The notes beneath the pieces were generated by a model. That model worked only from the letters and a program-made list of their open reading frames with translations, had not been told where the DNA came from and searched no databases. The position numbers and the translations under genes were made by a program. This document shows positions 1,487 to 49,591 of a stretch of 64,000 bases of DNA, one piece after another. Source of the DNA: a virus; IMG/VR virus record IMGVR_UViG_3300005534_000012, positions 1 through 64,000 of that record, one strand, 5' to 3'. Each line of letters opens with the position of its first letter. The first letter of the stretch is position 1.

Positions 1487-3303
1487 GGCAGACAGTAAAT
1501 CCAATCACGATAGACCGAGATGTTCCCGGAGGTGTCTTTCCACCACATCTTCACGACGTACAAAACCCCGGGGACTGCTGTAAAATATAGAGGATACGTC
1601 AGCAGTTGATTGGCTGGACGTGCAATGTTAGATGTGACGACTTGCTGGCTGCTGTCAGACCCGTAGATGGTGATGCTTTCTTGGCCCGGAAGCGCTCCCG
1701 TGGCATACTGGATTTGCAGTCCTCCAGAGGCAGAGAATGTGGACTGGTATGTTCCGCCAGCGGGAATAAGCGTGGCGTTCAAAACCGACATCGCTTGGAT
1801 AGAGAAGTCCAAGGCTCCGTTGGGCGTCACGCCGATTGCAGGCCCGAGATAGAACATTCCCTGTCCGGGGATTGACCCGCCGCCAAGCGTCATCAGGTCA
1901 GCAACCGTGCCGTCCTTAGCAGACAGTTGCCACTTGATGTTATCAAGGACAAAGAAGTCGTTTGGCGTGATTTCCGGTATCACACTTTGGAATGCGATAA
2001 CATCGTTGAGATTCAGTCCCGCGTCGTCCGGCAAACGACACCCCAACAATTTCCCTCGCTTAGATGCCTGCTGAAGCATGTAGTAGGCGACCTTTGAAAC
2101 GGCATATTGCGTTTGCCATGTATTGTCTTGCGCAATCATGTACGCGCGTTTGCCGAGCCCCAGAGGCGGAGGGTTGTTGACATCGTTGTAATTGACGCCG
2201 ACAGCACACAGAATTTGCCCGCAGTTATTATCCCACCCCAGTGCAACGCAGACATTGCGACGGTCGCGGGTAATATCGACTCCAACCTCGGATACTTGTG
2301 CGGCGGCATAGACGCGCTTCGGAACACCGATGATATCGACGTACTGAGAGTTGAGTTTCCCGAACCCATCGACGGTCCAGATGTTCCCGGCGGCCTGCAT
2401 CACCTGCTCGATGACATCGAACATTTTGGACCCTGGCTGGTATGCGAAAAGCGGCGACTCATAGTAGACGCCTGTGATGTCTACGACCTTTCCTACGTCA
2501 GCCACATTGAAATACAGCAGCCCATTGTAAGAATCCAAGTAGTACGACCCGGACGCCGGAGGGAACAGTCCGCCATTAGAGGCTTGGGTCATCGACCCCA
2601 CAGTCATCGTCGAAGCGATGATGTAGCGTTGGGGCAGTTCGAAGACAGAATACTGTTGGCCCGAAGCCGGGGGAATCATCAGTGAAGCGACTGGAGCCGT
2701 TGTCGGATTGGTGAATGAGCCAAGGGTGCCGGACGGCAAGACGAAAACCGAACCGTCGTCATTGACGAGGTCGGGGAAATAAACGACGCCGTTCCCGTTG
2801 GCCTGAGTGTAGGATGCCGTTGAGTTCAGTTGGTTTCCGTTGTCATCATAGATGACGTATTGACCCTTCGAGATGGCGCGGTTTAGAACGTCTATCGCCG
2901 CGTCATTCGGTTTCATGTTATCGTAGATAACGCCATCGAGCATGATGGCGTCAACCAGTTCCTTCAGGTTGTCCGTACATACGTATGACCGAGAGAGCCC
3001 GTTCAACCCGTCAATCGTCGGACTTGGCGCATCGACGAATCCTGTGAAGCATCGCGTCAGCGCTCCGCCCTTGGTTCCTCGATAGGCGCGAATGCGCTCG
3101 CCTTCATATAGGCGCGAGCGTGTGTCCCCCGGCATATCGGGGATGGTAATAGTCAGTGTTCCACTTCGGTGAGTGGCTTGGTCGCCTTCAACTTTCGTGA
3201 TGGGAAGCGTTATCCAGTTCCCACTGCGCCATACTTGAACAAGCACATAGTGCGTGAGTGCTTGTGCGGCGGCGGCCTGCTGAGGTGTTAATGCGGCCAT
3301 CAC
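1483..3303 (-). CDS. minor tail / baseplate hub-like protein
   Basis: 606 aa. The N-terminal part (residues 15-130) has a beta-strand pattern with a segment on tethering to a coordinate-like 'GTLTITIPD..GD....YEGERIRAYRG' theme typical of tail hub (gp27/gpD-like) proteins, where a tensor-like domain describes a perturbation around a ring. No lysozyme or peptidase motif is seen. Overlaps the neighbours by 4 nt on both sides, so it is translated with the Dit-like gene before it and the Hint tail gene after it. Its place directly after tape measure and distal-tail gene is the standard slot for the hub (Tal-like) protein of siphoviruses. The hub assignment rests on position and weak sequence flavour, not on a diagnostic motif. 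Confidence 0.55.
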   Translation of the reverse strand: MMAALTPQQAAAAQALTHYVLVQVWRSGNWITLPITKVEGDQATHRSGTLTITIPDMPGDTRSRLYEGERIRAYRGTKGGALTRCFTGFVDAPSPTIDGLNGLSRSYVCTDNLKELVDAIMLDGVIYDNMKPNDAAIDVLNRAISKGQYVIYDDNGNQLNSTASYTQANGNGVVYFPDLVNDDGSVFVLPSGTLGSFTNPTTAPVASLMIPPASGQQYSVFELPQRYIIASTMTVGSMTQASNGGLFPPASGSYYLDSYNGLLYFNVADVGKVVDITGVYYESPLFAYQPGSKMFDVIEQVMQAAGNIWTVDGFGKLNSQYVDIIGVPKRVYAAAQVSEVGVDITRDRRNVCVALGWDNNCGQILCAVGVNYNDVNNPPPLGLGKRAYMIAQDNTWQTQYAVSKVAYYMLQQASKRGKLLGCRLPDDAGLNLNDVIAFQSVIPEITPNDFFVLDNIKWQLSAKDGTVADLMTLGGGSIPGQGMFYLGPAIGVTPNGALDFSIQAMSVLNATLIPAGGTYQSTFSASGGLQIQYATGALPGQESITIYGSDSSQQVVTSNIARPANQLLTYPLYFTAVPGVLYVVKMWWKDTSGNISVYRDWIYCLP

Positions 3304-4343
3304 CAGTACCTAAAAAATTCGGTGCCGCCGTTGCTTAGGTCAATGCTCGTGCTATGAGCCAGTCCACCATTCGTGTAAAAGTAAACGGTTTGAGTCCCGC
3401 TCGGGAACGGCGGAAAATAGGGGAACGGTGTTCTGCTCCCGGGGGCGGTGACCGTGAAAGTGTAGACCTCAGTCGTTGTCTGGAAGGTAGATGAATAGTA
3501 GTAGCACCGCATTTGCTGTGTGTCGAATATGATGTAATCATATTGGAGAATGGGAGGACCTGTCCACGTAAAGGTCACTCCCGCGCCAGTGCCGTCTACA
3601 TCTTGGGCCGGGTTATTCAGAACGCATTGTGAGAACGGCCCGTTGAATCGGATTTTACCACCCCACGGAGCAGTCCCGAGATTCGAAAACGGGAAAACCG
3701 TAGTGAAGTTGTTCTGCGCCAGAATCCCCCACGCTTGACCGTTCCAGGCAGGCAAAAAATCAAGAGCGTTGATGCCCAGGGGACCACCAAACCATTGCTG
3801 GACCTGTAAGGCTGTAGGAACTGTAACAGGGGGACCCCCGAACCCCCCAATGAGTGGGTTCGGGACTGGATTCAACGAACGGAACCAGGGGTCGACCATG
3901 TGCAATTCAAGTTTCAGGTCTTGTCGATAGCCGCCCTGACCATACCGTGGGTCATACGATTCCTGTGACATCACACTATCGGGAGAATCCACATACACCG
4001 GGGCGGTCAATGCCGGAGCAAGTCCATCAATGAATAGATTCTGCACGGAATCAAAATTCAGAGACGTGAAAGCGGCAGTCATCGTCCGTCGGTCGGCTCC
4101 CTTCCACGTCAGTTCAATATCCCGTGACGGAATTTTCCGGGGAGCCTGCGTCCGACGCTCTGACCCGTCAACCATGTTTTGATACAGGATGCTCGGCTTT
4201 GTGGCCTTGACAGTGATGCTATCTGGATTCCGAGGAAGAACAATCCCTCCGATTTGCCAAGTCGGGCGATTATTCAGCGGAACCCCTCGCTGCCCAGGGA
4301 TTTCGTTGATGAGCGGGTCACTGTAAAATAGTAAGAGTGACAT
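3300..4343 (-). CDS. distal tail (Dit)-like protein
   Basis: 347 aa, predicted soluble and beta-rich, with many aromatic residues and prolines. An early segment carries the phrase pattern 'IGGIVLPRNPDSI' followed by a stretch with basic residues, similar to N-termini of distal tail proteins that form the ring joining tail tube and tip. It begins at an ATG touching the tape-measure stop (1-nt overlap at 4343) and overlaps the next gene by 4 nt. Position straight after the tape measure is the usual Dit slot in siphoviruses. No catalytic motif is visible. A different minor tail role is possible. Confidence 0.5.
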   Translation of the reverse strand: MSLLLFYSDPLINEIPGQRGVPLNNRPTWQIGGIVLPRNPDSITVKATKPSILYQNMVDGSERRTQAPRKIPSRDIELTWKGADRRTMTAAFTSLNFDSVQNLFIDGLAPALTAPVYVDSPDSVMSQESYDPRYGQGGYRQDLKLELHMVDPWFRSLNPVPNPLIGGFGGPPVTVPTALQVQQWFGGPLGINALDFLPAWNGQAWGILAQNNFTTVFPFSNLGTAPWGGKIRFNGPFSQCVLNNPAQDVDGTGAGVTFTWTGPPILQYDYIIFDTQQMRCYYYSSTFQTTTEVYTFTVTAPGSRTPFPYFPPFPSGTQTVYFYTNGGLAHSTSIDLSNGGTEFFRYW

Positions 4344-7300
4344 TATGTCAATGTGCTCACGAAGTCACCACGCAACCGCGCGGATGCAAACGATGAAGCG
4401 TTCATCGCATTGGTCAGGATGTTGGCGAGTTCTGGAATCTGCGCTCTCAATTCCTCAACGCTCGTTTCCGATAGCGTGGAATTCGGGAATAGGTTCACGG
4501 TGACAAACGGAGTCATTTGGGCCGGGGGACCACCGGGGGTTGACGGAGCGGTTGGAACCGTACTGCCGGGAACATAGCCGCCCGCCAAGTGGTTGTAGCC
4601 AGCATTCCCGCCCTGTAGGAAATAGGGAATATTCAATCCAGCCGTTCCGCCCAACAGCATTGTCGTGAACGATGCCGCAAGTCGGTCTGCGTTCTGAGCC
4701 TGTTGCAGTTGGTCGTTCATGGCGCTCTGGAGAATCTTGTCGGCGGCTTCGGTCAGTTGGATATACTCAGCAACACCGACGTGCTTACCAGAGCCGAGCG
4801 TGAAGACGCCGTTCTTCTCTGACGCGATACCGAGGTTCGGTCCCAACGCTTGGAGTTGTTTTAGTATCGACTGTTGTGAGGCGGTGTATCCGCTGAAATT
4901 GCCATTCAATCCAGCGAGGATACCCTCCATTTGCTGAATCTGGCCGCCAGCCATATTGTAGGTTTGCAGATACTGCTGATACCCGGGCATCGTTTGGTCG
5001 GGTCGATACGAGGCTGGAGAGTTGTTGCCGAACAGTCCACCGAGCGCTCCGCCGATAGCACCACCGACAGGACCAAAGAGTGAGCCGATGGCAGAACCAA
5101 CGGTGGCCCAAGTGGAATTCGAACCGCCGCTTCCACCGTTGACCATGCCCGCCACGAGTTGGCCGACCGTGTCGCCGATGGCGAAGTTCTTTTCGTAGGC
5201 GGCGATACCGTTCATTTGGTTGTAGTAAGACTGCGCCGAATCAGTAAGGCCCGCTGGCTCTGATGCAATCCCGGTATAGCCCCCGGAGATGTTGTTGCCG
5301 CTACCGTCTTGCGCAACCGTGGGTAATGCATCGCCGTTGCTCTGCATCTGGTTCAGCACGTATTGCAGGCTGGAATCAATGCTGTCTAAGGACGAGGCGC
5401 TTGAGCCCACTGGCCCCAGATTGTCCGTGGCCGACGCTGAAGCGACTTGGACGCCCTGGGTATTTTGTTGATTGTTTTGTTGCTCTGCCTTGATGATGGC
5501 GTTAGCCGCATCCACAAGTTTCGCCGCCGCCTGACGGTGGTGGTCGGCCGCAGTTTGGTGTGCATGCAGAATGTCGTTGATGTGGACTTCTTTGACTTTT
5601 TCCGTCGAAGCCTTGAGGTCTGTTACCGCGCTTTTCAGCAGTATGGCGTTTTCGTGGTTCAACTGGGCATCGGTTTCGTGAATGCCCTGTTTGCCAAACG
5701 CCTGCTGGAAGAATCCGCCAACATTGTTCGACAGACTGTCGAACAGCGCGGCAACTTCGCTCTGAAGGAATTTCTGAACGAAGGTACGGACGAAGGTGCC
5801 CACGATACCCGTGGACATGTGGAGTCTCGTCATCACCTGCGTGATGAATGCGTCGAATTCTCCGCCGATGGCATCGGTTGCGGCCTTGCCAGCGTTACGC
5901 AAGGACTGGTCGAGGTCCACGCCCCACTTCGCTTGCTTGATGCGGAGTTGGTCGATTTGCACTCCCGTGTCTTGAATCGTGTGCTGAAGGTTGACCAACT
6001 TGTCCTTTTGATTGTCAAGGTCTACGTTAGTCTGCTTCAACTGCCCATCGAGTTGCGTATAGAGCGCGATGAGGTCTTGGCACTGCTTGGTTTGGCCGAG
6101 CCCAGCGTCTTGCAGTTCCTTAATCTTGATGCCAAGCGCGTAGACTTGGTCGTTCAGTTCTGAACGCTTCTTCGTCTCTTGGTCGATTTCGTCGGACAGT
6201 TGGTGACGATACGACAACTCCATGTTGTATTCGTGCGCGAGTTCTTGAATCGTCGGATATTCTTTATTCTTGCGCTCGTCGGTCAACAGTTGCAGTTTGC
6301 GGTCGAAGGTGTCAGCCGCTTCGCCAGCCTTATTGAACATGTCAGCCAACGCGGCCCCAGAGGCCGTGTCGGTCGCGTCCATTTTGAGGGCGGACTTCAG
6401 GAGTTCTTGGTCCTTTTTCGCCGCAGCAGCAACAGCGGCCAGATGCTGTTCTGCCGCTACGATGTCTGCCTTATTACCCCAAATCGGAATATTCTGTCCG
6501 CCGGGGGTTATCATGTCAATCCAACCGTTGTGGATGACACGACCCTGCTTTTTCTGCTCTGCTTCGACGGCCTTGACGAAGTCTATGATTCCCTTGATGG
6601 CGCTTTCTTTGATAGCCATGACCGCATCGTAAACGGTCTTCGCCTTCTTCGCCTTCGAAGAATTCATCAGGTTTTCGATGGCATCGCCAGCAGCAGCGTA
6701 GTCTGGGTTCTGGTCTACTTCTCCGCTGTCTGGAGAGTTGAACCCACTGTCGGTTTGTGACTTAGCCGCACCGCCAACGCCGTATTGTTTATAGATATTG
6801 CGCTGGAACGATGACGTTTGCTGATGAAGGAGGTGTTCATGTGCCTCCCAATATGACTTCCCAGCGGCTTGTGCGTCATCTCGTGCGGCCTGCTGATAGG
6901 CAGCGTCGAATGCTTCGTGTCCTTCTTTGCCCATTTTGGCAAAGACCGGAACGACGCTTTGCTGCCACCACTTGCCGATGTTTTCGCCAAGCGTCTTGAT
7001 GTCGTTGAACCATGCAACGGGATTGAACAACGCATCTAAAACGATTTTAAGTGTGGTTTTTCCCCACGTTTCAAGGTCTGGAGTGATTCCTTGGAACCAC
7101 TTCAGTACGTCTGCAGCCCACCGCTGAATAGCCGCGCCTGCCTCATCGAGGCCCTTGTGCACGTAGTACGACAGGCGACCGAAGAAGCCAGTGACTTGCT
7201 GCCAATGCGTGACGATAAGGGCTGCCCCAGCGACAACCGCGCCGATAATGAGGGGCCATATTCCGATGAGCCCGACAAGTACGTCGGTCACACCGACGAC

Positions 7301-9415
7301 GGCGGTGCGAACAATGTTCCAGGCGCTGATGAAGGGACCACCGAGCGAGCGAGCAACGCCAGCAAGTGAGTATTCCATCTTGCCAGTTACGGCATTGGCA
7401 ACTCCCATTTTGGCGAAGAATCCACTTGTTGCTTCTTCGGCCTTGGCGAACATCGGCCCGATTTCGATTGCGATGCCGACCATTTTCACAAGCGAGCCAC
7501 CAACGATTGCGATGGGGCCCATGACGAGCGACAGGGCCGTTCCGAACAGTGCGGCCTCAACCGCTGCCTTTTTGATGGGTTCTGGAAGTGCCATGAACCA
7601 ATCAATGAAACGCCCGATGCCGTCAATTGCCTTAGACAGGTCCGGCTCGATTTGTTTGAACAGGCTTAACCATGCCGCCTTGACTTTGTTCTCAAGGTCG
7701 ATGGCCTTACGCTCAATGTCGTTGATACGCGCTTCATACGCCTTGTCGGTTGAACCCGACGCGGTCATTCTCTCTTGTTCGCGTTGCATTCCGGCAGGAC
7801 CGATTTGCGCGGCCTTAGTCGTCAACGCGGCTAAGTTGGGAATCGCCCATAGACCGCCAAGCGTGGCGAGAACGTGAGCGGCTTCCTTTTGCTTGCCCTC
7901 AGCATTCATTGCTTCAATGGCTTTGCCGAGCGAGGCCAGCACTTCATACGGGTCACGCATGCGACCAGACTTGTCGTACATGCTGGCGCTGACGCCTTCG
8001 CTCTCCAGCGCGTTTTCGACCGCCTGCATGGCCTTCGGGTCCTGCGCCTGACGAGCGAACATACGCTTCAGGGTTTGACCCGCATTTGTTCCGGTGACTT
8101 TCACTTGAGCAAGCGAAGCGACCATCTCTGCGACTTGGTCGAAGGACAGGCCGAGTGAATGCGCCAGCGGGCCGAACGCCTTGAACGACTCTCCGGCCTT
8201 GCCGATTTCCGACGCCGTAGACAGAGCGATGTTCGTGAAGGTGTCGCTGACGTGCTGATAATTGCGCTGTGTCTCGGCCAGCGACTTGCCGGGATAGAAT
8301 TGTGAGATGGCCGCGTTCATGTTGTACGCGGCTTCTTCAGGCGTTATCTGTTCGCCACGGCCCTGTGCGACGAGCATCGTCTTGATGTACGTCTCGAACA
8401 TCTTGTCAAGGTAGGCGCGGTCCTGGTCGTTGTTCGCCCGCAATCCCTCGGGCATGGACGAGGTGAATTTGTATGCGCCAGCGATGACATCTTCCATCGG
8501 AACGCCCGCTTTTTGCGCAAGTTTCGTCACATCATCGCGGAACTTCTCTGCTTGGTCTGCCGCGCCCGGGAATGCTGTCGCCATCCGGCGCAGTGAATCG
8601 TCCATCTCAGCCGCGCTCTTGACGCCCGCACCAAGTACCATCGCCAGGATGCCCCCGGAAATGGTCGCGGAGTAGCCCCACGATACGACCTTCCGGCCGA
8701 CGTTCCGCCACTCCATGCCGAGGTTGGACATCGCCTCTTGCGCGGCTTTTTCAGAGGCGATTATCTTCTCTTGCTGCGCCGCCATTTGAGCGGCCTGCGC
8801 CTCGTTGTTCACCATGCCGCCGTACATGCCCATCGGCACGGTGGCCTCAGCCGCAGACAGCGTTCGCCCGGAGCCCATGCCCCGCTTCATGTAGGCTTCT
8901 TCGGCGCTGGGGGCTCCGGCCATGAACCCGCCGAACTGCCCACCTCCGCCGTAGATGGAAGCCATCAATGCGCTGGCTTCGCGCGTGAGCGCCATGCGCT
9001 CGTCCATCGTCGCACGGAACAGTGCGGTCGTCTTCTCTATGTTCGCGGCTTCAATACGAGCGGCTTCGTTGGAAGCGCTTATCTGTGAATCGTAAGCGGC
9101 GGAGATTTGCCCGATTGATTCTTCGATGGCAAGGTTGAGTTTGACAAACTTCTGAGCCATCGAGGCGGCTGCTGCGCCGCCCTTGCCGTTGAGGCCATCG
9201 AACAACTCGTTGAAGGTGGCTCCAAGCGCACCAATCTGCTTTTGAATCTCGCCAAGAGACGCCTTGAGCCCCTGGAAAACCGGAGCACTCGTAGAGGTGG
9301 CCGCGCTTTGGAATTGAGCAACAGACTGACGCAATGCGTCAACCTGTTGCTTCATCTCCGATATTGCACTCAGATTCTCCGCGAGAATCTGGAGTTGCAC
9401 TTGGACCTTAGCCAC
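4343..9415 (-). CDS. tail tape measure protein
   Basis: 1690 aa, the longest gene in the window. It determines tail length and is thought to help DNA enter the cell. N-terminal coiled coil (about 1-65), a TP901-type core around 235-560 starting at a Gly/Ala-rich hydrophobic stretch followed by AAEMDDSLRR, hydrophobic segments near 615-650 and 718-740, a second long coiled-coil zone around 1000-1180, and a Gly-rich hydrophobic tail segment near 1440-1462. Composition and length are typical of tape measures. Start is GTG at 9415 overlapping the TAA of the gpGT reading frame (GTGGCTAA), which couples its translation to the chaperone. Tail length by the usual 1.5 angstrom per residue would be about 250 nm. 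Confidence 0.95.
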   Translation of the reverse strand: MAKVQVQLQILAENLSAISEMKQQVDALRQSVAQFQSAATSTSAPVFQGLKASLGEIQKQIGALGATFNELFDGLNGKGGAAAASMAQKFVKLNLAIEESIGQISAAYDSQISASNEAARIEAANIEKTTALFRATMDERMALTREASALMASIYGGGGQFGGFMAGAPSAEEAYMKRGMGSGRTLSAAEATVPMGMYGGMVNNEAQAAQMAAQQEKIIASEKAAQEAMSNLGMEWRNVGRKVVSWGYSATISGGILAMVLGAGVKSAAEMDDSLRRMATAFPGAADQAEKFRDDVTKLAQKAGVPMEDVIAGAYKFTSSMPEGLRANNDQDRAYLDKMFETYIKTMLVAQGRGEQITPEEAAYNMNAAISQFYPGKSLAETQRNYQHVSDTFTNIALSTASEIGKAGESFKAFGPLAHSLGLSFDQVAEMVASLAQVKVTGTNAGQTLKRMFARQAQDPKAMQAVENALESEGVSASMYDKSGRMRDPYEVLASLGKAIEAMNAEGKQKEAAHVLATLGGLWAIPNLAALTTKAAQIGPAGMQREQERMTASGSTDKAYEARINDIERKAIDLENKVKAAWLSLFKQIEPDLSKAIDGIGRFIDWFMALPEPIKKAAVEAALFGTALSLVMGPIAIVGGSLVKMVGIAIEIGPMFAKAEEATSGFFAKMGVANAVTGKMEYSLAGVARSLGGPFISAWNIVRTAVVGVTDVLVGLIGIWPLIIGAVVAGAALIVTHWQQVTGFFGRLSYYVHKGLDEAGAAIQRWAADVLKWFQGITPDLETWGKTTLKIVLDALFNPVAWFNDIKTLGENIGKWWQQSVVPVFAKMGKEGHEAFDAAYQQAARDDAQAAGKSYWEAHEHLLHQQTSSFQRNIYKQYGVGGAAKSQTDSGFNSPDSGEVDQNPDYAAAGDAIENLMNSSKAKKAKTVYDAVMAIKESAIKGIIDFVKAVEAEQKKQGRVIHNGWIDMITPGGQNIPIWGNKADIVAAEQHLAAVAAAAKKDQELLKSALKMDATDTASGAALADMFNKAGEAADTFDRKLQLLTDERKNKEYPTIQELAHEYNMELSYRHQLSDEIDQETKKRSELNDQVYALGIKIKELQDAGLGQTKQCQDLIALYTQLDGQLKQTNVDLDNQKDKLVNLQHTIQDTGVQIDQLRIKQAKWGVDLDQSLRNAGKAATDAIGGEFDAFITQVMTRLHMSTGIVGTFVRTFVQKFLQSEVAALFDSLSNNVGGFFQQAFGKQGIHETDAQLNHENAILLKSAVTDLKASTEKVKEVHINDILHAHQTAADHHRQAAAKLVDAANAIIKAEQQNNQQNTQGVQVASASATDNLGPVGSSASSLDSIDSSLQYVLNQMQSNGDALPTVAQDGSGNNISGGYTGIASEPAGLTDSAQSYYNQMNGIAAYEKNFAIGDTVGQLVAGMVNGGSGGSNSTWATVGSAIGSLFGPVGGAIGGALGGLFGNNSPASYRPDQTMPGYQQYLQTYNMAGGQIQQMEGILAGLNGNFSGYTASQQSILKQLQALGPNLGIASEKNGVFTLGSGKHVGVAEYIQLTEAADKILQSAMNDQLQQAQNADRLAASFTTMLLGGTAGLNIPYFLQGGNAGYNHLAGGYVPGSTVPTAPSTPGGPPAQMTPFVTVNLFPNSTLSETSVEELRAQIPELANILTNAMNASSFASARLRGDFVSTLT

Positions 9416-10180
9416 TCTTAAACAAGTCCTCTATCGCTTCGTCAAGTTCGTCAGGCTTCAGGTCGAACAGTTCTGCGGCTTGTGGGTCGCGCCGCCGCGC
9501 CATTTCGACCTTTTCCTTCGGGTCGAGGTCTGACGGATAGTCCGTCCGGTTGCTGTCCGCGCCCGCTGTTGCTTGACGTTCCTGGTCAAGAAGGTATTCG
9601 ATGTCGGACACGCGGTCAAGAAAATCCAAATACGACCACTGCTCTACTTGCTCGGGGTCGATTCGGAAGTACCGGGCAACTGAAGCGACGAGACGACGAA
9701 GTTTTAGGTTGTCGACTCCTGCGGCTCCGCTGTCTCTAACGCTTTGCCCCTTGGTGTCTTTGCCGAACGCTTTGAGGAAGTAGGGTTTGTGGACTCTCGC
9801 TCCTCCGCTTCCTTGGCATACGTCTCATTGAAGGCGTTGTGCGCGGCAAGCAAGAGCGGGTAGGGAGCCTCCTCAGCGAGGTCCTTATTGATGCCCCTGT
9901 CCGCCAGTTGCTTTTGCTGTTGTTCGCTGACGGCAAACCACGGCTCGCTTGCGTCTTCGGGGTCGCAGCACAGCGTCTTGGCGACGTAAAAGACAATCGG
10001 GGGGATGAGTTCGAGGTCTACAGAGTCAGTCGAACGACCGTCCTTGCCCATGCTCTTGAGCATGAGGGCACGTTTTTTCGTGATATCGGTCATCTCGGCA
10101 ACCGTCGGCATGCGCAGGCCGATGGTTATTCCCTGGAAGTCGAACGTGGTCGGTTTCTCGACGAAGCGCTTGATGGACAT
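9408..10180 (-). CDS. gpGT-like tail assembly chaperone made by -1 frameshift
   Basis: Predicted fusion of 257 aa. Ribosomes start at ATG 10180, read 133 codons of the gpG frame, slip back one base on AAACCCT (9788-9782) and continue in the -1 frame to the stop at 9408. The downstream frame is open back to a TGA well upstream of the slip site and encodes a convincing charged protein (KLRRLVASVARYF, EQVEQWSYLDF, acidic C-terminus), although it has no good start codon of its own. Known: lambda-type gpG/gpGT pairs lie directly before the tape measure and chaperone it; the shift gives a minor long form. Position, overlap geometry and a canonical X XXY YYZ heptamer in the right frame all agree. 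Confidence 0.85.
9704..10180 (-). CDS. gpG-like tail assembly chaperone, short form
   Basis: 158 aa, starting at ATG 10180 (AGGAAAGAGGATAAC just upstream gives a good ribosome-binding site); a longer in-frame extension to 10420 exists but is only the shadow of the neighbouring gene. Begins MSIKRFVEKPTTFDFQG, continues as an alpha-helical protein and ends in a Thr/Ser/Glu-rich tail beyond the slip site. Same frame as the first half of the gpGT product. Role by position: binds the tape measure during tail assembly. Confidence 0.85.
   Translation of the reverse strand: MSIKRFVEKPTTFDFQGITIGLRMPTVAEMTDITKKRALMLKSMGKDGRSTDSVDLELIPPIVFYVAKTLCCDPEDASEPWFAVSEQQQKQLADRGINKDLAEEAPYPLLLAAHNAFNETYAKEAEERESTNPTSSKRSAKTPRGKALETAEPQESTT
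9782..9788 (-). other. -1 ribosomal slippery heptamer A AAC CCT
   Basis: On the minus strand the heptamer AAACCCT is positioned as A|AAC|CCT in the gpG frame, so both tRNAs can re-pair on AAA and CCC after slipping. The gpG frame stops 78 nt further on at 9704 while the -1 frame stays open to 9408. No strong downstream stem was checked by computation. Confidence 0.8.
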
Positions 10181-42508: not shown

Positions 42509-42520
42509 GAAGGACAGCAG

Positions 42521-42555
42521 CCCCCACGAGAAAATCGTGGGGGTTACTTTTTATT
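42521..42555 (+). terminator. rho-independent terminator
   Basis: CCCCCACGA-GAAAA-TCGTGGGGG (42521-42543) followed by TTACTTTTTATT. Ends the small-gene operon 40179-42508. Confidence 0.9.
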
Positions 42556-42587
42556 GTCTAGTCCCAACCTCCAATGCAGGAGCAAAT

Positions 42588-42830
42588 ATGCAAATCACAA
42601 TCAATCTCGACGACGCAATCGTCGACCAGATAGTGCATGCGCGCGAGCAAATGAAAGCATGCGGTGAAGCGATGGGCGCGACGGCGAAAACCGACGCGTA
42701 CAAAGACCACCAAGTGCAACGTGCGTTCTGGAAAGGTGAATACGACCACCTAAGAGAGCGCATCGGAACACTGTGCGCAGACCTGTTCATGCGCCACCTG
42801 TCACGCGATGAGAAGAAAGCGCAACGATGA
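42588..42830 (+). CDS. unknown early-type protein
   Basis: 80 aa, ATG 42588 with TGCAGGAGCAAAT upstream (an upstream extension is not needed). MQITINLDDAIVDQIVHARE: beta strand then helices. Starts a new unit after the terminator. Unknown. Confidence 0.6.
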   Translation: MQITINLDDAIVDQIVHAREQMKACGEAMGATAKTDAYKDHQVQRAFWKGEYDHLRERIGTLCADLFMRHLSRDEKKAQR

Positions 42831-43000
42831 GCACAGACAGATTCCACGTTCCCGAATGGGAACCGTATAAGGCATCGCAAAAGGTGCTTTATTTCGCTCG
42901 CAAACTCACAGGTGAAGATTCCCGCGCAACACAGGAAGCCAGAGCACGGCACAACGAACGTGCTCTGGACCTGATTGAAGCGCTGAAGACGCGCTCATGA
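42827..43000 (+). CDS. 57-aa protein
   Basis: ATG 42827 overlaps previous TGA, TGA 42998-43000 overlaps next ATG. MSTDRFHVPEWEPYKASQ then helix. Charged. Unknown, but its coupling on both sides supports it. Confidence 0.6.
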   Translation: MSTDRFHVPEWEPYKASQKVLYFARKLTGEDSRATQEARARHNERALDLIEALKTRS

Positions 43001-43179
43001 GGGTAATCGAAGGCTCTTTTGACGAACCGAAAAACGACGACGCAGACAGAAGGGAATTAAGCACTTCGCTTCCCCACGCATGGCTATACGATGAGAGAAG
43101 ACATCATTACATTTGCACAACATGTGGCATCACTACTGGGGAGGGGGCGACTCGCCTCGTATTTGGGGGGTGCTCATGA
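42997..43179 (+). CDS. xFxEP-motif zinc protein, copy 1
   Basis: 60 aa. Begins MRVIEGSFDEPKNDD and has CTTCGITTGEG plus a Gly/Cys end (FGGCS), i.e. a CxxC zinc site. Nearly identical start and end to the next gene, so the pair is a tandem duplication. One of seven proteins in the window with an N-terminal F-x-E-P motif. Confidence 0.7.
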   Translation: MRVIEGSFDEPKNDDADRRELSTSLPHAWLYDERRHHYICTTCGITTGEGATRLVFGGCS

Positions 43180-43361
43180 GGGTAATCGAAGGTTCTTTTG
43201 ACGAACCCATCCACCACGACCCCCCACTGGCGCTTCCCCACCGATGGGACTACAACAATGGAGCAAGCCGCACCCAGGCGCAGTATTATCGTTGCCAAGA
43301 CTGTGATATAACTGCACCAAACGGTACACGCCTTGTGTTTGGGCATTGCAGGCCGCAATGA
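43176..43361 (+). CDS. xFxEP-motif zinc protein, copy 2
   Basis: 61 aa, ATG 43176 overlapping the previous stop. MRVIEGSFDEPIHHDPP, CQDCDITAPNGTRLVFGHCRPQ. Same motif and fold plan as copy 1 with diverged middle. See findings. Confidence 0.7.
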   Translation: MRVIEGSFDEPIHHDPPLALPHRWDYNNGASRTQAQYYRCQDCDITAPNGTRLVFGHCRPQ

Positions 43362-43621
43362 TAAATGGGCGCGAACACGAGCGCATGGTGCGCAGGGCAA
43401 TCGACGCAGACAAAATCGCGGCCGAGAACAATCGTGAAATGGACCAATGCAAACTGTGTTACACAGACTTGGCGACATTTCACGATACAGAATTCTTCTA
43501 CGAATGGGTGACACCAAGCGGGCTACGAATGCGAGCGCATCCGTGGTGCACACCGAAAGTCATGCAGGCGTATGCGACGAAATGCAACATCAAAAGCGCC
43601 AAAGCGAAAGGATGGAAATAA
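43358..43621 (+). CDS. Cys/His early-type protein
   Basis: 87 aa, ATG 43358 overlapping the previous stop. MINGREHERMVRRAIDADK helix, then CKLCYTDL and HPWCTPKV: a CxxC...HxxC zinc site. Basic C-terminus. Nucleic acid or protein binding. Confidence 0.65.
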   Translation: MINGREHERMVRRAIDADKIAAENNREMDQCKLCYTDLATFHDTEFFYEWVTPSGLRMRAHPWCTPKVMQAYATKCNIKSAKAKGWK

Positions 43622-43840
43622 GTGTCTATCAGAATAGACGACGAACTACAACGGAACACAGTCAAACGATGGCGGATTTGGAAAGCCGCTGTCAAACTGC
43701 TTTCGTCTTGCTACTATCTCGAAGAAAACCACAGTTACCACTACGACGAGAATGCAAAAATGACGAAAGTCAATCAGAACGGGGTAAACGGCTTCCTTGT
43801 CCCCATCGTCGTTTTCGTTCCTGAACACGACTGCGAATAA
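43622..43840 (+). CDS. unknown protein
   Basis: 72 aa, GTG 43622 directly after the previous TAA. MSIRIDDELQRNTVKRWRIWKAAV, then aromatic beta part. Followed by a hairpin. Unknown. Confidence 0.55.
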   Translation: MSIRIDDELQRNTVKRWRIWKAAVKLLSSCYYLEENHSYHYDENAKMTKVNQNGVNGFLVPIVVFVPEHDCE

Positions 43841-43844
43841 CAAC

Positions 43845-43864
43845 GCGCGGGAGCACTCCCGCGT
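43845..43864 (+). other. short hairpin
   Basis: CGCGGGA-GCAC-TCCCGCG, 7-bp stem, before gene 43943. Followed by TATGG, not U-rich. Possible leader structure. Confidence 0.5.
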
Positions 43865-43942
43865 ATGGTTCTCAAGCGGCGACACCGTGAGAGAGCCCCC
43901 AATATGGGAGTGCACTCAACCAACAAAACGAAAGAGGAATCA

Positions 43943-44164
43943 ATGCCCACACCGTTTCAACTCAAGCGGACCTATCTTTTCGCGGACGGGACCGAAATCG
44001 AATTCGAGTCCGTGAAGAAGGTCAAGATTCAGGACAATGGCAAGCATGTCATCACGCTGATGAGCGGAAAGCGCGTCATCGTGAACAACGACTATCGGAC
44101 GTGCACCATCGAGGGTGAGCGCCCATCGTCAACGCATGGTCGTTCCCCGCAGAGAGTGCGGTAG
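43943..44164 (+). CDS. small beta-rich protein
   Basis: 73 aa, ATG 43943 (GAAAGAGGAATCA upstream). MPTPFQLKRTYLFADGTEIEFESVKKV, a compact beta protein; basic tail. Unknown. Confidence 0.6.
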   Translation: MPTPFQLKRTYLFADGTEIEFESVKKVKIQDNGKHVITLMSGKRVIVNNDYRTCTIEGERPSSTHGRSPQRVR

Positions 44165-44266
44165 TCTCCAACCCACGCGGAACGCGGGGGGCGCAAGCCC
44201 CTCGTATGATTGCTGAGGGCTAAACCCATACGCAATCCCTTCTAGCGTTTCGCTGAAAGGAATATC

Positions 44267-44497
44267 ATGCAACAACCAGACTGCCCAAACTGTCTGGTCA
44301 ATCGACATGTCGCACCGCGCATCAATACGCAAGCACTCTATTGGTGCGCTATTTGTAAGACCACATTCGAAGGACCAGAGAGAACGCACAATCGAAAGCG
44401 TAAGGCAAAAGGCCAACGCAAATTCGAAAACTACACGCTCGATGAACTGATGGCAACAGTGCATCGAATGACTCACACGCCGAAAGGAGCAACATAA
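44267..44497 (+). CDS. zinc-ribbon protein before the amidoligase
   Basis: 76 aa, ATG 44267 with GAAAGGAATATC upstream. CPNC near the start and CAIC near residue 27, then a basic part. Directly precedes the amidoligase gene. May be a partner of it. Confidence 0.65.
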   Translation: MQQPDCPNCLVNRHVAPRINTQALYWCAICKTTFEGPERTHNRKRKAKGQRKFENYTLDELMATVHRMTHTPKGAT

Positions 44498-44499
44498 CC

Positions 44500-46095
44500 G
44501 TGCCAACGCCAGTTGCTGAAGAAGGACCGAAACGATACTCTGGGTCATTGTCAATGGCAAAGCGTATCGTTTCGGCCATCAAAAGAGGACATCAGCAGTC
44601 CATCCGAACCGTCTTCCTCGAATTCAACCTCAAGCGCCACCAAGGGCCCAAATACGTAAGGTGGCTCCGCAAGGCCATCGGAGTCTCAATCAGCGTTTGC
44701 GCCGATTGCAACAGTCCGTCGATTGCAAGCCTCACGCGAACGCTCACGTCAGAGGCAAAGCGCGTGTGCCCGCATTGCGCCCGCAATTACACCCATTGTC
44801 AAGAGTGCCAAACGACGTTCCTGCGAACCGCGATGCATATAGACGAATATCGGGCGATATGCATTCCGTGTCGTGACAGATTCTACAGCCGATGCACGAT
44901 ATGCGAAGTCCTCTGGCGACAATCAGAAATGTCCTCAAGAGACAGAAGCATTTGTGCGCACTGTTTCATGAGTCGCCCGCGCGACCTCGATTTCAACCCC
45001 CGGCTCTTGGGAGAGCCGCCCAACATCGCAGGCCACGGAGACAACGTGCTGGGATATTGTGCGCCATTCCCACGTCCAAAAGACGGCATCTTGCTCGGCG
45101 TCGAATTAGAGGTCGAAGTCCAAGGATTGGGCTCGCCGAATAGAGATGGCGATGGGCGCTTGATTTCAAGCAGTGTCGTGCAAGAAGTCGCCACGCACAC
45201 GCATACGTTGCTTCATGAAGATGGGCGACGATTCGCGTTCCTCAAACAAGACGGCTCACTGAGCGGATACGCAGGCGGTTTCGAAATCGTCAGCGCACCC
45301 GCAGGACTCGACGACCACGCAAGAATATGGCGGCGATTCTTCCAAGAGCGCAACCAACGCTTGCGGGGGCACGAATCAGGCAACTGCGGCATGCATATCC
45401 ATATCGGCCGATATGGCATGTCATTTCCTCCATTTCTAGAGCCGATTGAAAAGCGCAAACCAACCGTGCCCGGATTATCGCCGGGGGTTCGTGAGAGTCG
45501 AACGCGACTTGGCGAAACTGCGGCCCATCTGTGGCGCATGTGGCAGTTTCTCAGTCACCCAGACCATTACGGACTCGTAACCGACATCGCAGGACGAAGC
45601 CTCACCACAGGCAACGGCGGGAACTTCGCGGCGATACGCAGAGACGACAGGCGCTCCACCGCCCGAAGCGTCAAGCCGCAATATCAATCGGGCGCAAGCA
45701 GACGCTACATGGCGTTGAATTGGCTGAACGACAACACGGTCGAATTCAGAATGTTCAATTCAACGCTCAACTACAATACGTTCATGAAGAACCTCGAATT
45801 CGCGCATGCTCTGGTCATGTTCACGCGACCAGGGAGAATCGCGTTCATCCAGAAACAATGCCTCAAGGAATTTTTTGAATTCGTCAAGGACGAACGAAAA
45901 ACGTATCCTGCGTTATTCGCCTTCCTGGGATTCAAAAACTACGGGCACGGAATGTTCAAGGTCAAACCGCGACCCGTCGCCATGCAAGAAACCCAACAAC
46001 AGGCTCCACAGCCAACAACACTCGCTGTGCCAACACCTGAAATCGTGGATGCACAGCCAACAACGACAAGGAGACGCCGCATAGTATGTGCGTAA
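44500..46095 (+). CDS. zinc-finger amidoligase (GS-like carboxylate-amine ligase)
   Basis: 531 aa, GTG 44500. Residues 67-155 carry six CxxC pairs (C67/70, C90/93, C100/103, C121/124, C132/135, C152/155), a compact zinc array. Residues ~198 onward match the Amidoligase_2 family: GVELEVEV (200-207), KQDGSLSG (249-256), FEIVSAP (261-267), NCGMHIHIG (295-303) and later TVEFRMFNSTLNYNTF. Known: such enzymes use ATP to join a carboxylate to an amine and often co-occur with class II glutamine amidotransferases. The next gene is one. Target unknown; the zinc array suggests recognition of nucleic acid or protein. Confidence 0.85.
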   Translation: MPTPVAEEGPKRYSGSLSMAKRIVSAIKRGHQQSIRTVFLEFNLKRHQGPKYVRWLRKAIGVSISVCADCNSPSIASLTRTLTSEAKRVCPHCARNYTHCQECQTTFLRTAMHIDEYRAICIPCRDRFYSRCTICEVLWRQSEMSSRDRSICAHCFMSRPRDLDFNPRLLGEPPNIAGHGDNVLGYCAPFPRPKDGILLGVELEVEVQGLGSPNRDGDGRLISSSVVQEVATHTHTLLHEDGRRFAFLKQDGSLSGYAGGFEIVSAPAGLDDHARIWRRFFQERNQRLRGHESGNCGMHIHIGRYGMSFPPFLEPIEKRKPTVPGLSPGVRESRTRLGETAAHLWRMWQFLSHPDHYGLVTDIAGRSLTTGNGGNFAAIRRDDRRSTARSVKPQYQSGASRRYMALNWLNDNTVEFRMFNSTLNYNTFMKNLEFAHALVMFTRPGRIAFIQKQCLKEFFEFVKDERKTYPALFAFLGFKNYGHGMFKVKPRPVAMQETQQQAPQPTTLAVPTPEIVDAQPTTTRRRRIVCA

Positions 46096-47363
46096 TCATT
46101 CACAAACCAGCCGAACGAGAACTGACCGAATGGACCCTTCGGGAGGGACTACGCCGAAATTCAGACGGATGGGGGCTAGTCGCATATCCCGAAGGGCGCG
46201 GCTCAGAACCCGTCATCCACAGGGGACTGACAGGTATCGACGATTTCCTCAAGACGTATGAGCCATACGCCAAGGGCGTCGAAACAGTCATCCATTTCCG
46301 TTTTGCAACTCATGGCCTGAAAGACCTGGAGAACTGTCATCCGTATGACGTGGTTCCGGGCGTGGTCATGATGCACAACGGAATCTTGAGCGTCAAAACG
46401 CCGGACAAGGACCTGTCAGACACCGGGCATTTCGTCCAACTCATCAAGCCAATGCTCGAAGAAGACCCCACAATGGTCGAAAAAGAGCACTGGCTGAAGA
46501 TGGTCGGCGAACTAATCGGCAAGGGCAACAAACTCGTCTTCATGACAAAGAACGGCGTGTTCTACGTCAACAAAGAACAAGGCTCAATCGACAAAGACGT
46601 GTGGTTCTCGAACAGCACGTTATTCTATTCCACGCCGTCTTCATATAAACAGCCGCCGTATGGCGTCACGCACTACGGATACGGATGCCAAATAGATGAA
46701 GACGACTGCTACGACCTGGGAACTGTTTCAGACTCCTTTCGCAAATATAAAAGAGGCAAGCGAGGGAGTCGCAAGCCGTCGGCTTTTACGCCGACTACGC
46801 CTCCAGCAAGCCCGAAACCGGCGCTGAAACCCGGGACTTATACCGCGAACACGGTCCCGGTCAGCACCTATCAGCAAGCACAGATAGACGAGAAATGGAG
46901 AATGTTCTACACGACATCGGCAAACGAGTTAGCGGCTCGTGCGGAGCCGATGGAAGAACAGTACGTCTGTCTGTGGGGCGAGATGATGGTGAAACGTCCC
47001 CAAGAAATCTACGATTTCGTGTATAAGCATCCGTGGCTTGCGACCTACATGCTGTATGTGATGGGTCGCCAGGAGTTGATGGGCGACAAGGTCGATATGG
47101 CCGTCGAACTGCAACTCAACGAGAATGCCGAACACGACATCTATTTGCGGAAGCAAAAAGAGGCCGACGAAAAAGCGATTGAGGCCGCAACCAAAATCGC
47201 TCAAGAAGCCACCCGTCAGGGTATCGAACTGAACGGTTGCTCGGCGGCACAGATACAAGCACAGATAATCGCGGGCAATCCGTTGACGACGAAAGAAGAC
47301 ATGGTCGACGGAATCCCGATTATCCGGCCTCCGCAGGCTCAGGCCCCTGTAATCGTACTATGA
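46086..47363 (+). CDS. class II glutamine amidotransferase-like protein
   Basis: 425 aa, ATG 46086 overlapping the amidoligase stop. N-terminal nucleophile pattern Met-Cys2, NSDGWGLVAY at 25-34, HFRFATHG at 70-77 and HNGIL at 97-101: the signature set of N-terminal-nucleophile glutaminase domains. The C-terminal ~170 residues are unlike known amidotransferases: a Pro-rich linker and a helical part. Known role: releases ammonia from glutamine for a partner synthetase. It probably feeds the amidoligase. Confidence 0.85.
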   Translation: MCVIIHKPAERELTEWTLREGLRRNSDGWGLVAYPEGRGSEPVIHRGLTGIDDFLKTYEPYAKGVETVIHFRFATHGLKDLENCHPYDVVPGVVMMHNGILSVKTPDKDLSDTGHFVQLIKPMLEEDPTMVEKEHWLKMVGELIGKGNKLVFMTKNGVFYVNKEQGSIDKDVWFSNSTLFYSTPSSYKQPPYGVTHYGYGCQIDEDDCYDLGTVSDSFRKYKRGKRGSRKPSAFTPTTPPASPKPALKPGTYTANTVPVSTYQQAQIDEKWRMFYTTSANELAARAEPMEEQYVCLWGEMMVKRPQEIYDFVYKHPWLATYMLYVMGRQELMGDKVDMAVELQLNENAEHDIYLRKQKEADEKAIEAATKIAQEATRQGIELNGCSAAQIQAQIIAGNPLTTKEDMVDGIPIIRPPQAQAPVIVL

Positions 47364-47959
47364 TTACGATACAGGAAGCCAGGACAAGCGCAGAAAAGCG
47401 CTCGCAATTCCTTGAGGAGTTGCAACGCGCATATAGGCCTGCGCTTGTCCGCTTCATCAAGGAACATCCGCTAGACGACACAAGCGATGCATCGCAAGAT
47501 GTCATCGTTCAAGGGTTTCTCTACCGGGCGAATCGAGCGATTGATTCTGTGGACCTTGATGACGACGGTCGCGGAAACCATGACCCGGCGGCCTATTGTG
47601 CGGCACAGGGAATGTACGGCGCGAGAGACGCCGTGCGTTCCCTGACGCACGAGCGGCACAAAGTGCACAAGAACACTGTCCTGTTCCCCACTGCCGCCGA
47701 AATGGCACAGTGGGGATTCGACAAAGAAGAACCAGACGTTGCAGACGACGTATGCTTCAAGCGAGACATGGAAGAATTTCTGGAGTGGCTAACCACGCCG
47801 GAAAGAGACGTCTGCAACTTGCTGGCGCTAGGCTACGGACGAAAACCACAAGGCATTGTGGAAATTGCTAACATCCTCGATACGTCCATCGTGAGAGTGA
47901 AAAACATTCTCTCGCGAGTACGTATCAAGGCCACTATTCTGCTGAAAGCAGGCACATAA
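47360..47959 (+). CDS. sigma-70-like (ECF-type) factor
   Basis: 199 aa from ATG 47360 (overlaps the previous TGA). Region-2-like helix LQRAYRPALVRFIKEHPLDDTSDASQDVIVQGFLYRA, and a region-4 HTH: LEWLTTPERDVCNLLALGYGRKPQGIVEIANILDTSIVRVKNILSRVRIKA. Known: phage sigma-like factors redirect host RNA polymerase to middle or late promoters. May recognise the leader elements seen before structural genes, but that is speculation. Confidence 0.7.
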   Translation: MITIQEARTSAEKRSQFLEELQRAYRPALVRFIKEHPLDDTSDASQDVIVQGFLYRANRAIDSVDLDDDGRGNHDPAAYCAAQGMYGARDAVRSLTHERHKVHKNTVLFPTAAEMAQWGFDKEEPDVADDVCFKRDMEEFLEWLTTPERDVCNLLALGYGRKPQGIVEIANILDTSIVRVKNILSRVRIKATILLKAGT

Positions 47960-47985
47960 TCGACTTCGCTGAACACGGCGCGGAA

Positions 47986-48198
47986 ATGGAAATCTTTTCC
48001 GACCAAATGAATGACGGTCGGAAAAGACGCTACAATATCTACGCCCTACGACTGGTCTGGTATCCTATCATCTTTGGATGGATAGGAATATGCTTATTCG
48101 GAATGTGGTGCGGATGGTGGGTCGCAACGATACCGCTCATCGGCGGTTTCCTTGCGCTCGCCATGACGCACAGGAGGTTCTATCGTGGCACCCTATAA
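47986..48198 (+). CDS. membrane protein
   Basis: 70 aa, ATG 47986. Two hydrophobic segments around YALRLVWYPIIFGWIGICLFGMWCGWW and ATIPLIGGFLALAM. Overlaps the next gene by 14 nt. Unknown. Confidence 0.6.
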   Translation: MEIFSDQMNDGRKRRYNIYALRLVWYPIIFGWIGICLFGMWCGWWVATIPLIGGFLALAMTHRRFYRGTL

Positions 48199-48415
48199 AT
48201 TAGAAACGACAGATTTCGAGGAGCCGAAACACAAAGACACAGACGAAGCGCAATTCATGCGCCTCAATCAAGAATACTCCGAGGAGGATGAATACGAATA
48301 CTCCGAGGAGGATGAATACGAATACGCAGACTACGATGAGGAGGAAGGTTACGTTTCTTTCCAGTGTTCCGACCCGACTTGCCCAGAATGCAATCCAAAC
48401 GGGAACGAGGAATAA
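48185..48415 (+). CDS. xFxEP-motif acidic protein
   Basis: 76 aa, GTG 48185. Starts with DFEEPKHKDTD at residues 10-20; middle is strongly acidic with a 24-nt tandem repeat coding SEEDEYEY; ends SDPTCPECNPNGNEE (CxxC). DNA or ribosome mimicry is imaginable because of the acidity; not shown. Confidence 0.7.
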   Translation: MAPYKLETTDFEEPKHKDTDEAQFMRLNQEYSEEDEYEYSEEDEYEYADYDEEEGYVSFQCSDPTCPECNPNGNEE

Positions 48416-48852
48416 TGCTTCTACAGCAGCCTCCTACATTAGATTTCAAGGAACCCGAAGCGGTCGACTACTTCCTCACGACCACCCAGCGGGCAATTGC
48501 AAGGTACATTGAGCGTCCAATCTCGCTAGAGAAAATACGGGAGATTCGCCTTGAGATGAACCGCTCACCAGAGTTTGCTGACCATATAGCGCGACACAGC
48601 CAATATAACCAGCCAAGTTTAATCTTGAAGGCGCGGACAACGCTTCTCGGTGCCATGCGAAACAAGATTCCAAACTTTGTCCGCCTTTACTCAGATAAAA
48701 TTGGCGGCACCATCTACCTCACAGGATGGTATGACGCAACCATATCTCTACGAACGCGCTACCTCCCGACCTTCTTAACAAGTCGCGTGATGGGCGAAGA
48801 ATTTCATTTCGCGTTTGACCCATTTCTAAGGAAAGTGAAGGTATTCTCTTAA
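48415..48852 (+). CDS. xFxEP-motif protein, larger
   Basis: 145 aa from ATG 48415. LDFKEPEAVDYFL at residues 9-21, a helical body and a beta-rich second half with GGTIYLTGWYDATISL. Overlaps previous stop by one base. Unknown. Confidence 0.65.
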   Translation: MLLQQPPTLDFKEPEAVDYFLTTTQRAIARYIERPISLEKIREIRLEMNRSPEFADHIARHSQYNQPSLILKARTTLLGAMRNKIPNFVRLYSDKIGGTIYLTGWYDATISLRTRYLPTFLTSRVMGEEFHFAFDPFLRKVKVFS

Positions 48853-49038
48853 ATGATGGTGCTCAATAAGGACGACTTTGCGGAACCGCAACACAACGAC
48901 CCGCCGCAAAGCGAAAACAGAAACCTCCACATTTGGATTCCATTCAGCAGGGGCATAATGGTTTGCGAACGCTGCTTGCGTAGAACGCAAGCATCTGTGC
49001 CCTCACGCATCGGCTGTACGCCAAGGCGACCCCGCTAA
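48853..49038 (+). CDS. xFxEP-motif zinc protein
   Basis: 61 aa, ATG 48853. DDFAEPQHNDPPQ near the start, CERC and a later Cys, ending with basic residues. Adjacent to two more members of the same family. Confidence 0.65.
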   Translation: MMVLNKDDFAEPQHNDPPQSENRNLHIWIPFSRGIMVCERCLRRTQASVPSRIGCTPRRPR

Positions 49039-49235
49039 TGGCAACAGCGGCAAGGGTTTTTGAGGGGACCTTTGACGAGCCCAAACACAGAGAGCCAAGG
49101 GCCCACTCATGGACGAACCATTATGCTCAAACGCCACATAGGCCACTGACGTACCGATGCATCCACTGCGGAAAGGTCGCCACCGTTGACGTGATTTACT
49201 TAATAAGGTATGAAGAATGTCTCCCTATAAACTAG
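49038..49235 (+). CDS. xFxEP-motif zinc protein
   Basis: 65 aa, ATG 49038. GTFDEPKHREPRAHSW near residue 10, CIHCGKV (CxxC), ends YEECLPIN. Same plan as 42997 and 43176 (motif plus single CxxC). Confidence 0.7.
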   Translation: MATAARVFEGTFDEPKHREPRAHSWTNHYAQTPHRPLTYRCIHCGKVATVDVIYLIRYEECLPIN

Positions 49236-49591
49236 ACAACGACGACTTTGAGGAACCGCAACACAACGATACGGAAATCCCCAGACACGATTTGAGTCGC
49301 CCACGCGAGGGGATATCGTTTGACCTTTTTGACCGTGCAAATACGCTGGCAATGGCAGACCAATACCGTCAGATGGCCGAAAACATGGAAAGACTATATA
49401 ATACCGCGCCAGTCTCCACAGCCAGCACACAATCCGTACAATTTGACCAAGCCGCTCTCGACCAAGTGGTGCGGGAACTATTTAGCCCGATAATCGGCGA
49501 CATCCCAGACGAAGAAGAAGACAACGAAGAAGAAATAGAATACCAGCCGGGGTGGGGCGTTGAATCTCTAGAGGACGATGTAACTGAATGA
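49217..49591 (+). CDS. xFxEP-motif acidic protein, larger
   Basis: 124 aa, ATG 49217 inside the end of the previous gene (19-nt overlap). MSPYKLDNDDFEEPQHNDTE, N-terminus very similar to 48185. Helical middle and acidic C-terminus (DEEEDNEEEIEYQPGWG). Likely regulator or adaptor. Confidence 0.65.
   Translation: MSPYKLDNDDFEEPQHNDTEIPRHDLSRPREGISFDLFDRANTLAMADQYRQMAENMERLYNTAPVSTASTQSVQFDQAALDQVVRELFSPIIGDIPDEEEDNEEEIEYQPGWGVESLEDDVTE

Follow-up and report, generated by a model that had tools for sequence, protein, structure and literature searches.

The capsid-targeting sequences of phages (T4 internal proteins, Alt; SPN3US gp53/gp54) can be regarded as a described precedent for proteins that carry one tag on unlike bodies, with an N-terminus of 10-20 residues on different or diverged proteins. 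Cleavage by prohead proteases follows xxE motifs, and proteins that have diverged can still have N-termini in common, identical ones in the case of SPN3US gp53 and gp54 (PMC5694885). TraR/DksA-type proteins are small phage transcription effectors of zinc type whose acidic N-terminal motif is functional, and TraR combines DxxDxA with a C4 finger (PMC9239242). RiPP precursors, in turn, have a constant N-terminal recognition part, a variable remainder and a modifying-type enzyme in the same run, a layout paralleled by the phage locus described here.

This locus, a run of small genes with a common N-terminal motif, departs from each of these systems. Capsid-targeting sequences belong to head proteins and are cleaved after xxE, whereas the motif proteins have Glu-Pro and are encoded outside the head region; unlike TraR/DksA, they show neither DxxDxA nor CxxC-x17-CxxC; and where RiPP precursors have short cores, they have remainders that are zinc-ribbon-like or acidic proteins (60-124 aa). 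An amidoligase paired with a class-II amidotransferase, as known from phages, is present here, but the other pair-bearing phages examined lack the motif family. An earlier note on this DNA knew of no described family with this design, which holds for the motif within the collections searched, but not for the design as such.

The gene run and its N-terminal motif

The DNA analysed (the window, 64,000 nucleotides) is most of a 67,473-base IMG/VR record of a tailed phage. Its proteins gave only distant matches in phage records, at about 25-31% identity; relatives of the phage sought via TerL or the amidotransferase amounted to none or to a single 36% match, and no tRNA was found.

Table 1. Features of the window, and loci with the FETNSSS module in other phages (positions of the latter are those of the locus named)
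Feature	Position	Strand	Remarks
Strong terminator-like hairpin	42519..42545	+	consensus scan only
Motif gene 1	42997..43179	+	60 aa; MRVIEGSFDEPKNDD, then HxW-CxxC-C body
Motif gene 2	43176..43361	+	61 aa; MRVIEGSFDEPIHHD; paralog of gene 1 over its full length, 56% identity
Amidoligase (Amidoligase_2)	44500..46095	+	PF12224 E=1.1e-6, above cut-off; relatives in 69 viral loci
Class-II glutamine amidotransferase-like	46086..47363	+	N-terminal MC; GATase_4 E=5.5e-5, just under cut-off
Sigma-70-family-like, divergent	47357..47959	+	TIGR02937 E=8e-7, below cut-off; phrog_1740 E=6e-4
Motif gene 3	48185..48415	+	76 aa; DFEEPKHKD; acidic, net -23; ends CSDPTCPEC...
Doubtful member	48415..48852	+	145 aa; DFKEPEAVD, lacking the H; body of another kind
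Motif gene 4	48853..49038	+	61 aa; DFAEPQHND, then HxW-CxxC-C layout
Motif gene 5	49038..49235	+	65 aa; TFDEPKHRE, then HxW-CxxC-C layout
Motif gene 6	49217..49591	+	124 aa; DFEEPQHND; body acidic (net -24) and without Cys
Terminase, major head protein, tape measure		-	
Primase/helicase, helicase, UvsX-like recombinase, exonuclease		+	
FETNSSS locus L105	4258-6506		
FETNSSS locus L116 (MK250019.1)	3912-7280		
FETNSSS locus L117 (MK250024.1)	4581-7580		
FETNSSS locus L118 (NC_008562.1)	5998-7804		

All seven ORFs listed in the earlier note (named here by their start positions) are present at the starts given there, on the + strand, with FxEP starting at residues 8-12. Six of them (42997, 43176, 48185, 48853, 49038 and 49217) give a tag consensus of roughly nine residues, [DST]F[DEA]EP[KQI][HN]x[DE]. 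Among ORFs of at least 40 aa in the window, FxEP was seen 10 times within the first 20 residues, against 1.02 expected from within-ORF shuffles (n=200, maximum 4). When each member was sought with a profile of the N-terminal 19 residues of the others, the six were recovered with E values of 9e-5 (42997), 1e-6 (43176), 9e-6 (48185), 8e-5 (48853), 0.02 (49038) and 1e-5 (49217), the best unrelated frames lying at E 0.3-4. The seventh ORF, 48415, came out only at rank 74 with E=91 and was not recovered; its DFKEPEAVD could be a relic or due to chance, and by this test the family proposed in the earlier note stands for six of its seven members. The 48415 protein has no match to a known family, and its fold model (pLDDT 42) is too poor for use. 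Finally, a 19-column profile of all seven, compared with the six-frame translation of the window, scored no further ORF.

The junctions of these genes are tight and operon-like, with ATGA at 42997, where it overlaps the gene upstream, and at 43176, and TAATG at 48415 and 49038; the start of 48853 directly follows a stop, 49217 overlaps by 19 nt, and 48185, with AGGAGG before its GTG start, by 14 nt. Between the two clusters of motif genes lie those of the amidoligase, the amidotransferase-like protein and the sigma-70-like protein, the second overlapping the first and the third overlapping the second. With a strong hairpin upstream (Table 1) and no + strand terminator of comparable strength from 42545 to 49591 in a consensus scan, both clusters may belong to one shared transcript. 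As for coding signal, the own frame has the best codon usage of the six for all motif genes except 43176, and the scores of the zinc-type genes are poor in absolute terms.

Bodies of the motif proteins and selection on their N-termini

An alignment of the 42997, 43176, 48853 and 49038 proteins shows H, W, C, C and C as invariant, and each protein has four candidate metal ligands (invariant H27, C40, C43 and C59) instead of the lone CxxC zinc site of the earlier note; all four are probably zinc-binding. The arrangement HxW-x(6-25)-CxxC-x(8-22)-C, a pattern drawn from these four, occurs in no other of 971 six-frame ORFs. A fold model built on the four sequences (mean pLDDT 66) shows a featureless N-terminus (pLDDT 55) followed by a body hairpin (pLDDT 77-84), and its comparison with known folds gave weak zinc-ribbon-type matches (best E 0.83). 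Searches of Pfam and PHROGs with all seven proteins, and of NCBIfam and PADLOC with subsets, gave no curated or clear-threshold match, only sub-threshold zinc-ribbon hits. Two other members, 48185 and 49217, have 18 N-terminal residues in common and are both strongly acidic, without the HxW-CxxC-C layout. Gene 48185 also contains two identical 24-nt tandem copies at 48272-48319, with EYSEEDEY repeats.

Profile tests found the bodies far less alike than the N-termini. The body of 49038 is weakly like those of 42997 and 43176 (11 of 3000 shuffles reach its score), and that of 48853 was not recognised by profile (892 of 3000 shuffles). The bodies, described too strongly in the earlier note as completely different and unrelated, fall into about three classes; 42997 and 43176 are paralogs over their full length, four members show one ligand layout and two are acidic. 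As judged from the sequences, the layout shared by four proteins and the acidity shared by two indicate a duplicated gene family in which the tag has been retained while the bodies diverged or were replaced. Four of the six bodies may belong to one family, and part of the body difference would then be ordinary divergence. Plain paralogy would go further and regard the N-terminus as the slowest-evolving part, with the same intramolecular role in each copy and no common partner, as could be expected from the tandem duplicates 42997/43176 and the zinc-ligand layout common to four. This reading seems rather unlikely, given that 48185 and 49217 retain the motif on acidic bodies lacking that layout, and that the motif His would be superfluous as a zinc ligand: four others are available, and one zinc-type member has Asn instead.

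Codon by codon, F, E and P are invariant at positions 1 and 2, whereas position 3 varies, which argues that the N-terminal stretch is old and has been kept for its amino acids. For FxEP, pS is 0.71 against a pN of 0.08 over 15 pairs, which are not independent. The N-termini of 48185 and 49217 give pS 0.77 and pN 0.19 (Fisher p 5e-4), values that, like those for FxEP, are imprecise because they come from few codons, and 42997 and 43176 give 0.55 and 0.31 over 52 codons (Fisher p 0.012). Together with the contrast between N-terminus and body in the leave-one-out tests, these values support the view that a short motif is held by selection on proteins with diverged remainders. The same region forms direct repeats of 49 nt (42993/43172, 88%), 58 nt (48186/49218, 72%) and 32 nt (four copies), and the two long ones start at the start codon, or at most 4 nt from it, and end after about 16-20 codons. 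Such placement could suit an element in DNA or RNA that spans the start codons, an operator or translational control, and is translated by chance, but free third-position variation with unchanged amino acids makes this extremely improbable, and the reading was rejected by the codon test.

Distribution of the motif and comparison with other phage loci

The phage-wide search for the N-terminal motif called for in the earlier note was run and gave no family in IMG/VR, GTDB genomes or phage records. Exact-pattern scans of IMG/VR (DF[DE]EPxHxD, F[DE]EPKHxD and VxEGxF[DE]EP; 16 stretches) found no credible N-terminal match in a small gene, a similar scan of GTDB genomes (12 stretches) no credible small gene with the motif at its N-terminus, and tblastn of the proteins or of the N-terminal peptide against phages no credible match. 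The exception in the pattern scans is a doubtful, unrelated-looking ORF with the motif near its N-terminus (L005). Judging from these collections, from which close relatives of the record may have been left out, the family is apparently an orphan, confined to one genome. A 1215-aa protein (L038 570 and L039 5977) starts with MAEQFEDPIIIGDKNxEPPIVIEGDFEEPI, which resembles VIEGSFDEPI of 43176; as a relative of the motif it was discarded, the likeness being probably due to chance.

For the amidoligase, the comparison set comprised 72 loci, namely 69 viral amidoligase loci together with L004, MW202733 and MT839723. The overlapping amidoligase and amidotransferase pair (44500-47363) recurs in dozens of viral contigs, and amidotransferases are common in the loci of amidoligase phages (54 matches). 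None of the 72 loci contained a member of the motif family, and a zinc-type profile run against the whole records behind 41 of them was negative except for one weak match of 25 positions (G020). In L004, from about 950 to 9990, many short genes seem to have similar G+C-rich stretches, possibly dispersed repeats, in front of them, the ends of these stretches lying close to the start codon.

By the measure of likeness at the N-terminus against likeness in the body, the window was the only one among the 72 loci with small genes alike in the former and unlike in the latter. The same test also flagged L105, where genes share MKRQIRxGVFETNSSS. This module, roughly M[KR]xQ[IV]RxxVFETNSSSxH, occurs in Prevotella Lak phages, Microcystis phage LMM01 and IMG/VR contig 3300018495_000097, on one to five genes per phage (five and four in the Lak phages, one in LMM01), whose bodies form several groups that show no similarity to one another. 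Next to these genes in three loci, and separated from them by one gene in LMM01, lies a radical SAM gene whose C-x3-C-x2-C cluster is followed by a GKH[GA]D motif; FETNSSS looks like a tag or leader for the radical SAM enzyme. No mention of the string was found in a literature search. As in our phage, a short N-terminal motif is present on neighbouring genes with unlike bodies, and by analogy the module is a second precedent for the shared-tag design, unrelated to the FxEP tag; in contrast, its motif is different, recurs in several phages and lies beside a radical SAM gene. The record of our phage gave no match to the FETNSSS N-terminus, nor to PF04055 (radical SAM), a search that also missed the divergent genes seen by motif in L105, L116 and L117, so that a divergent radical SAM gene may have escaped it in our record as well.

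Possible roles of the common N-terminus

The reading that we prefer, and to which we give about an even chance, is that six (perhaps seven) duplicated small proteins have retained their N-terminus to dock on one common partner. The family arose by gene duplication inside one run of early-type genes, with the first 12-20 residues kept and the remainder diverged or replaced. The N-terminal stretch would probably be a short unstructured linear motif that docks all members on one partner protein, where the bodies would supply different activities. The partner could be a protein of the host, or it could be encoded in this gene run, with the amidoligase/amidotransferase and the sigma-like protein as candidates, of which the enzyme pair between the clusters is the nearest. 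A common binding partner had been suggested in the earlier note, alongside a targeting signal or processing site, and these roles are inferred. The evidence that points to docking comes from one genome.

The enzyme pair could have another role, with the motif as a leader-like tag for the amidoligase/amidotransferase and the small proteins as substrates, amidated or cross-linked via Asp/Glu carboxylates. Both sides share a gene run in which the pair is flanked by the two clusters, the motif includes one Glu that never varies and one Asp/Glu that hardly does, two of the proteins are strongly acidic, and in each of the four loci examined the unrelated FETNSSS tag, on unlike bodies, has a radical SAM enzyme close by. 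We consider this reading unlikely, since the 72 loci and 41 whole records, in which the pair is common, gave no family member beyond the one weak partial match. However, the amidoligases of the other loci show only 22-32% identity, which leaves room for a joint change of tag and enzyme. That the phage modifies a set of its own small effectors, chosen by their shared N-terminal tag, through the enzymes of the same run seems a little more doubtful still; if true, then together with the FETNSSS/radical SAM loci, this would make a recurring phage design of an N-terminal tag by which many unlike small proteins are offered to a modifying enzyme.

A capsid-targeting sequence, which would carry the proteins into the prohead and be cleaved after FxE, has the same architecture, with an N-terminal stretch of 10-20 residues common to different proteins. 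It is nevertheless a very improbable explanation here, because Pro follows Glu in every member and would normally block cleavage, the four head-region proteins checked do not contain FxEP, and the motif genes have early-type genes as neighbours, with the head genes on the other strand. Equally improbable are TraR-like effectors of RNA polymerase, with the acidic N-terminal motif in the secondary channel and a zinc ribbon on the rim: small phage zinc-type proteins with an acidic N-terminal motif and a sigma-like gene nearby would fit, but DxxDxA does not occur in the first 25 residues and each protein has at most one CxxC.

To return to docking on a common partner, many small orphan phage proteins have functions that cannot be guessed from sequence. 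A search rule of alike N-termini and unlike bodies picked, among the loci tested, only this family and, via a further lead, the FETNSSS group. A tag retained on orphan proteins would point to one shared partner, so that one pull-down could be enough to assign all six orphan genes together.
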